From NCBI GenBank assembly GCA_036924085.1, contig JAVGWX010000011.1, positions 33,850,386 to 33,914,385 on the forward strand: a DNA stretch of 64,000 nt. The letters run 5' to 3'. Both the position numbers and the translations under genes were made by a program. Positions 30,976 through 33,938 of this stretch are shown here, one piece after another. A model generated the notes under the pieces. The model did not search any database, was not told the DNA's origin, and saw only the letters and a program-made list of their open reading frames with translations. Position 1 is the stretch's first letter. The number at the start of each line of letters is the position of its first letter. The stretch is from Ariolimax columbianus. Lineage: Eukaryota > Mollusca > Gastropoda > Stylommatophora > Arionidae.

Positions 30976-31550
30976 ACCACACCAACAAGAGAGCGCAGGC
31001 CTGCCTAACACGCTTGCCCACCTTTCCCCGACACGGTAGCGGGACCAATTTTGTGGATTCGTACCACTGGAAACGGTGCGTTACTGTGGTCCGTATCGAG
31101 AAGCTATGTCAGTCCGTGGTGGTTATGAGAAGGCGTATAGCCAATCTCGACAGTTCGTCTCGCTGGTGATCATTCTCTCGCAAAGAGCTTTTGACCGGCA
31201 AATGGAAAGCAGGAATCGTGCCTAAAGGTCCTGTCCTTGCCCGACCAACCCGTCGGAGAAGGGCAAGCCGGCAGGGAAAAATCGTCTCCAGTCCCAGTGA
31301 AAATAATCGCCGGGGCCGTTGGGATCCGTTCTGCACAGAGCGCTGCCATCCCTCCCCGAGCGAGACCAGTCGATCGGTCGGTTGGTGTGTGTACGGGCTC
31401 CTGTCAGGCGGTCCTAGGTCGAGGGAGTGAGGGAAGGAACAATCGTCCGTCCGTCAGTCGGTCACTGAGGCCGTCCTAGTGAGGCGTTTTACACATCCAT
31501 CCATCCTTCCATCGTCGACCGGTGTGTGTGGTTCGTACGTCTCAGACAGA
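30976..31550 (+). rRNA. Probable pre-rRNA 5' external transcribed spacer
   Basis: GC-richer than its surroundings and full of CCGTCCGTC/GGTCGGTTGG-type words. It leads without a gap into the mature 18S 5' end. The position immediately upstream of 18S makes 5' ETS the simplest reading; the left limit near 30976 is approximate. This implies the source was a precursor transcript or an rDNA unit, not mature 18S. Confidence 0.6.
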
Positions 31551-32715
31551 TATCTGGTTGATCCTGCCAGTAGTCATATGCTTGTCTCAAAGATTAAGCC
31601 ATGCATGTCTAAGTTCATACTGTCTCACGGTGAAACCGCGAATGGCTCATTAAATCAGTCGAGATTCCTTAGATGACACGATCCTACTTGGATAACTGGC
31701 AATTCTAGAGCTAATACATGCTTACCAAGCTCCGACCCACGCGGAAAGAGCACTTTTATTAGTTCAAAACCAATCATCGTTTCCCCTCGCGGGATTGCGG
31801 CGTCCCCACTGGTGACTCTGGATAACTTTGTGCTGATCGCATGGCCTCATGTGCCGGGGACGCATCTTTCAAATGTCTGCCCTATCAAATGTCAATGGGA
31901 CGTGACATGACTATCATGTTTGTAATGGGTAACGGGGAATCAGGGTTCGATTCCGGAGAGGGAGCATGAGAAACGGCTACCACATCCAAGGAAGGCAGCA
32001 GGCGCGCAACTTACCCACTCCCAGCACGGGAAGGTAGTGACGTAAAATAACAATACGGGACTCTTTCGAGGCCCCGTAATTGGAATGAGTACACTTTAAA
32101 CCCTTTAACGAGGATCTATTGGAGGGCAAGTCTGGTGCCAGCAGCCGCGGTAATTCAAGCTTCAATAGCGGATATTAAAGTTGTTGCAGTTAAAAAGCTC
32201 GTAGTTGGATTTCGGGCGCAGGCGGGCGGTCCGACTCGCGCCGGTTCACTGCCCATTGTCTCCTGCCCTACCGTCTGCCGGCTCTCTCCCGCGAATGCTC
32301 TTTGCTGAGCGTCCCGGGTGGCCGGCGCGTTTACTTTGAAAAAATTAGAGTGTTCAAAGTAGGCCTCAGCTGCCTGAATAATAGTGCATGGAATAATGGA
32401 ATAGGATCTCGGTTCTATTTTGTTGGTTTTCGGAACTGGAGGTAATGATTAACAGGGACAAACGGGGGCATTCGTATTGCGGCGTTAGAGGTGAAATTCT
32501 TGGATCGCCGCAAGACGAGCTACTGCGAAAGCATTTGTCAAGAATGTTTTCATTAATCAAGAACGAAAGTCAGAGGCACGAAGACGATCGGATATCGTCG
32601 TAGTTCTGACCATAAACGATGCCGACTAGCGATCGACAGGAGTTGCTTCGATGACTCTGCGGGCAGCTTCCAGGAAACCAAAGTGTTCGGGTTCCGAGGG
32701 AAGTATGGTTGCAAA

Positions 32716-32764
<49 letters not shown>

Positions 32765-32822
32765 GCGGCTTAATTTGACTCAACACGCCAACACTGAAAT
32801 GATTGACAGGCGAGAGCACTTT
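31551..32822 (+). rRNA. 18S rRNA, 5' two-thirds, degenerate (pseudogene)
   Basis: Starts TATCTGGTTGATCCTGCCAG and runs collinearly through AAACGGCTACCACATCCAAG, GTGCCAGCAGCCGCGGTAAT and GTTAAAAAGCTCGTAGTTGG to TTAATTTGACTCAACACG at 32770-32787. A shortened stretch ATTGACAGGCGAGAGCACTT (18S-like with deletion) follows. Substitutions at normally invariant sites (for example TTCAAGCTTCAATAGCGGAT where CCAGCTCCAATAGCGTAT is expected) show that it is not under rRNA selection. The 3' third is missing. Confidence 0.93.
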
Positions 32823-33218
32823 CGTTGGGTCTATTAGGGAACGTGTGCTGGAATTGGACCCACGGAAGACAGGTCAGTTTTACCCTACTAATGACAGGGC
32901 GTTGCTACGGTAATCCTTCTCAATTCGAGAGGAGCCGCAGACATTTGGTTCACGTACTAGGCTGATAAGCCAATGGCACGAGGCTACCATGTGAGGGATT
33001 ACGGCCGAACACCTCTAAGCCGGAATCCCGCCTAAAATCTCAGCGCCACTGCGATGGGAGGCTACGACATGGTCGAGACCTGGGGCTCACGCCTCAGCCC
33101 CACCCGGTCGAGACGCAGAAAGAGGTCTCTGCCGTCCGCCGATCAAAGCGTAAGCAGTAGAGCAGCCACCTCACTGTGAACTGTCGAGACTCAGCCCCTG
33201 ACCATGAGATATGTCCGC
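32823..33218 (+). rRNA. 28S rRNA 3' end fragment fused to 18S (pseudogene)
   Basis: Begins in the region equivalent to CTAATAGGGAACGTGAGCTG (here CTATTAGGGAACGTGTGCTG). Continues through AGACAGGTCAGTTTTACCCT, GACAGGGCGTTGCTACGGTA, GAGGAGCCGCAGACATTTGG and ATTACGGCCGAACACCTCTA to the 28S terminus ACCATGAGATATGTCCGC. About 80 bp present in the other copy (after GATCAAAGCG) are deleted. 5.8S, both internal spacers and most of 28S are absent. Confidence 0.9.
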
Positions 33219-33938
33219 ACACCAGGCGAACAACATCTCCGTGACATTACCAGGCTTGTCCACTGGATAAATGCACTTCTGCCTCGCTTTCTACCTCTGT
33301 ATGCTATCAGTCATCCCAATGGACGCAGAAGAGATGCAGGCTAGCGGACATTGCACATCTGCCCTATTGTGTCAACCTCCCAGGTGGTGGGGAATGCTAG
33401 GCGTACCATCACGGCAGAGAAGCCGAGAAAATAAAGGGAGCAAAGAGATACCCCACTCACATGCATATACTACGTTTCTGGCAGGACATGACGATCCTGG
33501 GATACAGACACACTGGACTGCCTCTCTTCCGGGATAGTACAAACCAGTACATAGACCATATCATATATCACATGTCATATCTCATATATCATCACCGCAC
33601 CCTATAGACACGAGTAGTGAAGACTCGTTAGTCCCGTAAGACAACTTCCATAAGAGAGACAACTCTGATCACAAACAACTGCTGCCTTGCAGATAGGCTG
33701 GTGACAGCCAAAGGCTAAGGAGGGCATCCCTACAGAAACGCCTGTTGAAAGCGGATGCACTGGGCCACAGGCTTAACAAGTAACACAGTGCAACGTATAT
33801 CGCTGTATGATGATAGTACGCCCTAATTGAAAAAAGCGTGGCGCTCATCCTGTGGAGTCCCGCCAGGCAGCGAGAGTGCTGGGCCTCACGCCTCGAAGGG
33901 GCCCAACCATAGCTACTGGTGGTCACCCACCCATGTGA
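33219..33938 (+). mobile_element. Leader between the 28S end and the LINE ORF
   Basis: 33219 to about 33775 is shared with 56075-56868 (e.g. CCCAATGGACGCAGAAGAGA, CCTCCCAGGTGG, GAGGGCATCCCTACAGAAAC, CGGATGCACTGGGCC). The end CACAGTGCAAC also matches the SINE family 1 body. From about 33790 the sequence is unique to this copy and leads to a TGA at 33936, after which the endonuclease frame opens. Probably the 5' UTR of the LINE, or the body of an rRNA-headed element joined to it. No ORF1 (gag) is readable. Confidence 0.6.

Follow-up and report, generated by a model that had tools for sequence, protein, structure and literature searches.

How did pieces of a ribosomal RNA (rRNA) precursor come to run directly into a retrotransposon on the same strand? 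The question is raised by a 64,000-nucleotide stretch of the genome of the slug Ariolimax columbianus (the window; assembly GCA_036924085.1, contig JAVGWX010000011.1, positions 33,850,386 to 33,914,385). A first-pass annotation, made from the sequence alone, described a probable 5' external transcribed spacer (ETS) and 18S rRNA, a jump to the 3' end of 28S rRNA, and then a leader and the endonuclease of a long interspersed nuclear element (LINE). Rfam, the endonuclease and reverse transcriptase domains of Pfam, and alignments of other copies confirmed this arrangement. To explain it, the annotation offered either template switching by the reverse transcriptase or a LINE lineage with an rRNA-derived head. 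Each of these found support, and the evidence favors both together instead of one or the other. We think it likely that the window holds a member of a LINE lineage that inherited its joint to the 28S end, whose reverse transcriptase repeatedly switched onto pre-rRNA, and in which one ETS-18S head reached high copy number. This rests on the joints, the dispersal of the copies, the fixed 5' nucleotide, the target-site duplications (TSDs) and the variety of heads, all of which we observed and from which we infer the template switching.

A dispersed LINE family with an rRNA head

The element in the window is damaged, and it is one of many dispersed copies of a LINE family. We searched the assembly (2.29 Gb in 401 contigs) with several parts of the element. 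Candidate counts are loose first-look matches from a search that skips very common words, and 40 places were scored per query. The 28S end plus leader gave 3,562 candidates, and the 40 scored are spread over contigs C1 to C23. The leader alone gave 4,363 (39 other scored places match at 93–96%), and the ETS gave 3,471 (39 other scored places match at 92–95%, and 36 of the 40 match from nucleotide 1). For comparison, a 28S internal stretch from outside the element gave 79 candidates and the second internal transcribed spacer (ITS2) gave 30. By these loose counts, the family size is of the order of 10^3 copies. The ETS and leader matches pair in the same orientation at five places that are on both lists. 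The distance between their starts is 2.69–2.78 kb at C14:44.91 Mb, C10:83.23 Mb, C3:82.96 Mb and C14:65.16 Mb, and 2.06 kb at C22:21.50 Mb; it is 2.74 kb in copy L025.

The annotation's suggested search for the joint of the 28S terminus to the leader found the same joint at many dispersed copies, so this is a lineage. The 18S/28S joint, which was also checked across copies, is common to the window, L012, L027 and the copies with tandem heads that are described below.

We fetched 20 copies, whole or in part, for comparison. Seven of them have a complete head (L012, L013, L015, L016, L020, L024 and L025), and these have the same start, ATCTGGGG, next to unrelated flanks. (The start of L024 differs at two bases.) We also picked four further places among the plus-strand places that match the ETS from nucleotide 1, and all four have unrelated DNA directly before this nucleotide. 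So 11 complete-head copies start at one nucleotide and share nothing upstream. This nucleotide is probably the 5' end of the pre-rRNA. Because no sequence upstream of the start is shared, amplification needs an internal promoter, a master copy linked to ribosomal DNA (rDNA), or capture in every round.

TSDs are present in 9 of the 20 fetched copies. An automatic test of 16 fetched copies and the window (L009, L011, L013 and L024 were left out) found TSDs at both ends of L012, L016, L018, L019, L022, L026 and L028, as matches of 11–13 nt that overlap the tail AAGA by at most 4 nt and extend 7–12 nt beyond it. By eye, we found TSDs of 9 nt in L009 and of 8 nt in L020. In all seven copies from the automatic test, the same-strand joint of element and rRNA lies inside one TSD. 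The 5' truncations are within 18S or 28S, and the 3' end has an (AAG)n tail; truncated copies with a TSD at a point inside 18S or 28S show that the rRNA and the LINE were inserted as one piece. The family thus shows LINE-like insertion by target-primed reverse transcription, with a TSD, variable 5' truncation and a constant 3' tail. It does not have a fixed insertion site in rDNA as R2 does: the copies are dispersed with unrelated flanks.

These results bear on two simpler explanations. One is an event at the DNA level, in which an orphan rDNA unit lost an internal part and received a LINE insertion. The order ETS-18S-28S-LINE in the window is compatible with this. However, the same joints recur at many loci with different flanks, the TSDs bracket the rRNA together with the LINE, and the non-collinear joints (see below) do not fit, and we consider this explanation very improbable. 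The other is a single template-switching event, restricted to this locus. Switching of a LINE onto 28S is documented in the form of single insertions (PMC13174262; we draw on this and the other cited papers in excerpt). But both the 28S/leader joint and the 18S/28S joint are shared among dispersed loci, and we give a single event almost no credence. We also rejected a satellite or an assembly artefact, as the copies are dispersed and diverged and have TSDs.

Joints within the heads and their probable renewal from the host

The annotation's template-switching alternative is the best explanation for the rRNA heads upstream of the leader, which vary between copies and were gained or swapped on more than one occasion. 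A single 18S/28S joint is present in the window, L012 and L027. Nine other copies (L013, L015, L016, L018, L020, L021, L024, L025 and L026) have tandem heads, whose first 18S/28S joint is the one in the window. In these, the 28S piece after the joint ends in AGACCCTCGGAA and is fused to an older start, which reads ATCTGGGG or nearly so. Some 50 nt of ETS come next, after which the sequence jumps to 18S and then returns to 28S. A newer head thus encloses an older 5' end that was itself complete.

More generally, among 27 instances of the start sequence, genomic DNA precedes 6 and a 28S piece ending AGACCC..AA precedes 17. The others are preceded by ITS2 (L034 and L060), by 28S GTCTAAT (L033), or by 28S CCGCTAAG (L075). 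The two fusions of ITS2 to the start carry different versions of the ETS. Varied rRNA sequences fused to one terminal nucleotide are what an end-to-end jump of reverse transcriptase from an RNA 5' end would leave. The joint to the leader is at the 28S terminus; the later joints are at many internal sites.

Other heads include 5.8S rRNA. A search with RF00002 gave 53,434 loose candidates, of which 40 were scored; we read 29 of the 40. Element sequence is present at 27 of these 29 places, as leader or LINE, as a tandem head, or as an ETS start (in L064, it is an antisense LINE tail). L059 and L077 have rRNA joints only, within the stretch fetched. The joints at these places include ITS2 to the ETS start, the 5' part of 28S to 18S, 5.8S to 18S, 5.8S to the 28S end, and ITS2 to the leader; in L072, 5.8S is joined directly to a truncated LINE. 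At least eight places (L034, L060, L075, L035, L062, L065, L068 and L076) have non-collinear joints, which cannot be deletions of one collinear transcript. L031 and L032 form a segmental duplicate, and the same joint occurs in L066 and L071. L033 and L068, which leave ITS2 at the same point, may be related. Since ITS2 was found at only 30 places in all (30 of 30 scored), heads with ITS1-5.8S-ITS2 are few beside the ETS-18S head.

We considered whether these copies might descend from a master copy that is transcribed by RNA polymerase I (Pol I). Such a source, made from a deleted rDNA unit and a LINE, would lie behind an rDNA promoter, and Pol I read-through would yield progeny that begin at the Pol I start. 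This would account for the compact heads that are collinear with pre-rRNA and for the 11 complete copies that start at one nucleotide without shared upstream sequence. It would not account for the non-collinear joints (28S piece to start nucleotide, ITS2 to ETS, 5.8S to 18S, and 5.8S to LINE), or for different ETS versions on LINE bodies of the same age. As an explanation of the family, a Pol I master copy seems unlikely to us, although it may account for the amplification of the main class of copies.

Instead, we propose that the carrier was a non-LTR (long terminal repeat) retrotransposon that encoded endonuclease, reverse transcriptase and RNase H. Long ago, it would have fused its leader to the 3' end of 28S, a joint that later copies inherited. 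This fusion at the 28S terminus was apparently the first event. During later target-primed copying, the reverse transcriptase would have run repeatedly from the element's RNA, at or before its 5' end, onto pre-rRNA. It would then have copied the pre-rRNA upstream, which would give heads of ETS-18S, of ITS1-5.8S-ITS2, or of 28S pieces. One ETS-18S-28S head would have entered the high-copy lineage, whose complete copies start at what is probably the pre-rRNA 5' end. Homology between an old rRNA head and fresh pre-rRNA probably aids the switch and renews the head.

Renewal can be compared with a head that was inherited, mutated neutrally, and was never replaced from host pre-rRNA. We counted private sites, at which a copy differs from a base on which the main-class copies agree (five copies for 18S, six for the other parts). 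(L016 is left out of the 18S counts by a 70% coverage filter; it is without about 110 nt there, which depresses its 18S identity.) Main-class copies have on average 1.6% private sites in the leader, 2.0% in the open reading frame (ORF), 2.0% in 18S, and 2.8% in the ETS. The window has 8/523 in the leader, 23/1745 in the ORF, 27/1117 in 18S, and 31/516 in the ETS; the corresponding counts for L012 are 23/510, 50/1344, 28/1075 and 40/591. (L034 has 55/585 in the ETS.) The window has an excess of private sites in its ETS (31 versus 14.3 expected at the ETS rate, P = 9e-5) and no such excess in its leader, ORF or 18S. L012 is older in the leader and the ORF (the printed P is 0.0000), but no greater age is detectable in its 18S (P = 0.12). 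Furthermore, 10 sites in the ETS are common to the window and L012 against the main class, versus 0–1 in each other part. Judging from these substitutions, the LINE body of the window matches the main class and its ETS is a different version. The pattern fits heads that were taken at different times from a host with a static 18S and a changing ETS (proof would take the host sequence). A head without renewal would explain why the 18S/28S joint is common to the aligned ETS-18S heads, and why private rates are similar in the leader, ORF and 18S of main-class copies. It does not explain the excess ETS divergence of the window and L012, with none significant in 18S, or why ITS1-5.8S-ITS2 material is present on only some of the copies. 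We consider it quite unlikely.

The 5' ends of heads that begin in ITS1 are clustered. For 16 readable ends, numbered as nucleotides before 5.8S in the frame of L030, 7 are at 110–118, 6 are at 237–245, 2 are at 287–291, and 1 is at 141. (The count covers 16 of the 29 places; L032 is a duplicate of L031, L030 runs past the reference, and for 11 the fetched stretch is too short.) When we simulated 16 random ends in 300 nt, 7 fell in a 9-nt window in 2e-5 of 50,000 trials. Because most downstream joints differ, many of these heads are separate captures. The clusters may be the 5' ends of processing intermediates. The ITS2 pieces of L059, L034, L060 and L064 end close together, at ITS2 291–306, which is possibly an ITS2 processing site. 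The piece in L060 (ITS1-5.8S-ITS2 and 82 nt of ETS) is without a LINE and lies beside an AAA ATPase-like stretch (26S proteasome-like, by eye).

We did not find the rDNA unit of the host: it was absent from the best 40 of the 53,434 loose 5.8S candidates (RF00002) and from the best 40 of the 79 candidates for the 28S internal stretch, and none of the 30 ITS2 places, all scored, is in an array. Nor was any rRNA found at Rfam gathering scores when one 600-base sample was taken from C24 and from each of 19 smaller contigs; 3 of these 20 stretches match the LINE body, and L044 reads N. An rDNA array could stay hidden, as the search skips very common words and some stretches read N. The dispersed fragments of internal 28S have common start points (at 177–193 of the query) and end points (at 478–485), and two of them, at 16.91 Mb on C14, are separated by 9.5 kb.

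Several points weigh against a lineage with repeated switching onto pre-rRNA. No TSD was found for the window copy or for 11 of the 20 fetched copies, not all of which allow a test. Because the host rDNA unit was not found, our assignments of the ETS, the start nucleotide and the nature of the leader are indirect. The ETS-18S heads are not wholly independent, as all the alignable ones have the same 18S/28S joint, and the 17 start sequences preceded by AGACCC..AA may go back to one inherited event. Even among main-class copies, mutation is faster in the ETS than in the other parts (2.8% versus 1.6–2.0% private sites), and a direct comparison of L012's 18S to its leader and ORF is borderline (P = 0.059). 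Finally, the ITS1 cluster at 110–118 is just 3' of a strong predicted hairpin, so a stop of the reverse transcriptase is equally possible there.

Tentatively, repeated switching onto pre-rRNA can be taken one step further: it is possible that the high-copy LINE adopted a Pol I transcript as its 5' region, so that its RNA starts at the rRNA start and its head is renewable in each round. Transcription would rely either on a promoter within the ETS that was captured or on a master copy linked to rDNA, and homologous switching onto fresh pre-rRNA would follow. If this is true, then the scattered heads would be a dated fossil record of the 5' ends and processing intermediates of host pre-rRNA.

The copy in the window and its LINE

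All parts of the element in the window are on the plus strand. The ETS part is at 30989..31553, by comparison with the seven complete-head copies; the first 79 or so nucleotides of the family's 5' end (ATCTGGGG...) are missing. The ETS runs unbroken into the 5' end of 18S in eight aligned copies (the window and the same seven), and also in L034. The 5' two thirds of 18S follow at 31554..32828 (Rfam SSU_rRNA_eukarya, 31554–32696, 858 bits, plus 32698–32725). The annotation was right that there is an 18S/28S joint, but the copy alignment puts it at about 32828/32829, not at 32823. The 3' part of 28S is at 32829..33214, from Rfam and the other copies. The LSU_rRNA_eukarya match (32898–33212) extends to model position 3399 of 3401, so 28S does reach its terminus before the leader, as had been described, with its end near 33214 instead of 33205. 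Relative to most fetched copies, the window copy is without 83–84 nt of 28S at about 33150.

The leader, of about 720 nt, is at 33215..33938, and is supported by the 39 other scored places. The endonuclease and the first part of the reverse transcriptase are at 33939..35837 (Pfam Exo_endo_phos, Exo_endo_phos_2 and RVT_1). A second LINE, which is not of this family and has its own RVT_1 match, lies within the reverse transcriptase region at 35838..38417. It is a later insert, as 17 of the 20 fetched copies read straight on from about 35837 to about 38418; L009, L019 and L027 lack the site. We take this second LINE to be CR1-like. The end of its frame has a C2H2 finger match below the Pfam cut-off, and a short (TTA)n run is at its 3' end. 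The remaining reverse transcriptase, the RNase H region, and the 3' end with its (AAG)n tail are at 38418..40215 (the end is approximate), by comparison with other copies. The RNase H region was assigned from the Pfam RNase_H matches of L016 and L011, not from the window itself. The domains of the family were found in pieces of several copies, and all the frames are broken.

The leader is probably the LINE's own 5' untranslated region (UTR); the alternative is a 3' ETS. No plus-strand frame of at least 110 amino acids lies inside the window's leader; the other copies, which were scanned at 300 amino acids or more only, are all decayed. In LINEs of the Nimb clade, the type named in the annotation, a separate ORF1 precedes ORF2. 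A database search with the reverse transcriptase region gave 1,783 relatives at E <= 0.001. Among the 120 listed, the best is 66% identical and 1,282 amino acids long, and four are named as from animals (Batillaria and Littorina, two gastropods). Related contigs of about 4–5 kb that carry the entire ORF hint at an element with one ORF and little 5' UTR, which argues weakly for the leader as the LINE's own sequence. There were no relatives in viral_contigs. Besides rRNA, the leader matches no Rfam family, including ribozymes like that of hepatitis delta virus (HDV), at E up to 5. We also considered HDV-type self-cleavage at the head, and set it aside as there was no Rfam match.

Short non-autonomous forms are present in two copies. 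In oriented coordinates, the one in L009 starts at about 2507, and the one in L011 extends from 2818 to about 4140. In both, the rRNA head and leader are joined to the LINE's 3' tail, with no ORF. The form in L009 has a 9-nt TSD and is interrupted by other sequence.

More pieces of the same or a near LINE are at 3800–6183, 22021–23373 and 59585–60400 of the window. A dispersed repeat lies 5' of the element, at 30456–30782, and pieces that match it are near the element in L009, L010, L013, L016, L017, L019, L023 and L029. At 30139–30390, a tRNA-like stretch is followed by a body that resembles a short interspersed nuclear element (SINE), by eye; ARAGORN found no tRNA there and no tRNA genes in the window. 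Two tandem arrays are at 25000–29551 (50-bp unit, 88 copies) and at 1–3694 (28-bp unit, 133 copies).

Comparison with known systems

Chimeras of LINEs with abundant RNAs are known mainly as rare single insertions; in this slug, one of them became a lineage. The host seems to be the source from which its rRNA part is renewed. This would be a route for a LINE to gain a new 5' UTR or promoter, and suggests copying where pre-rRNA is plentiful. With copies of the ETS, ITS1 and ITS2 of different ages, along with RNA ends, processing sites of pre-rRNA become testable from the genome. A caution is that ITS, 18S or 28S sequences from such genomes can be pseudogenes carried by LINEs. We found no LINE family with a pre-rRNA head in the open-licence literature in PMC; most subscription literature was outside this scope.

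SINEs with rRNA heads (5S and 28S) exist. Like these, the short forms in L009 and L011 combine an rRNA-derived 5' part with a LINE 3' tail. In the slug, however, it is the LINE that carries the head, which consists of Pol I precursor, including the ETS. The excerpt of PMC13174262 names SINEs of this kind. It also describes 18 chimeras of 28S with LINE-1, of 50–482 nt, of which 83% are on the same strand for 28S, and attributes them to template switching or RNA ligation. Our family resembles these and the other 5' chimeric LINE-1 insertions (with U6, 5S, U3 or tRNA) in that a copy of an abundant RNA is joined to a LINE body. Unlike the few insertions of 28S/LINE-1 chimeras, it is a high-copy lineage with stacked heads that include ETS, ITS1, 5.8S and ITS2. 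Further prior work is in PMC2718515 and PMC11203168.

Successive template jumps also formed the tripartite WEIRD/Mg-SINE/MGL chimera of Magnaporthe, with two jumps in an insertion flanked by direct repeats (PMC2104539, as excerpted). That is one locus, whereas stacked heads recur at many loci in the slug, with pre-rRNA as the second RNA. Human tailless retropseudogenes likewise include rRNA copied by LINE machinery, but nucleolar Pol I rRNA is reported to be under-represented among them (PMC5322556, in the part drawn on here), while in the slug, pre-rRNA is a recurrent partner. Finally, R2, R1 and the short internally deleted elements of R2 share with our family a link to rRNA, template jumping at the element's 5' end (for R2, to U12 and tRNA), and internally deleted derivatives (excerpts of PMC3414825). 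But R2 is inserted in 28S genes and is co-transcribed with them, whereas the slug family is dispersed and carries the rRNA inside the element.

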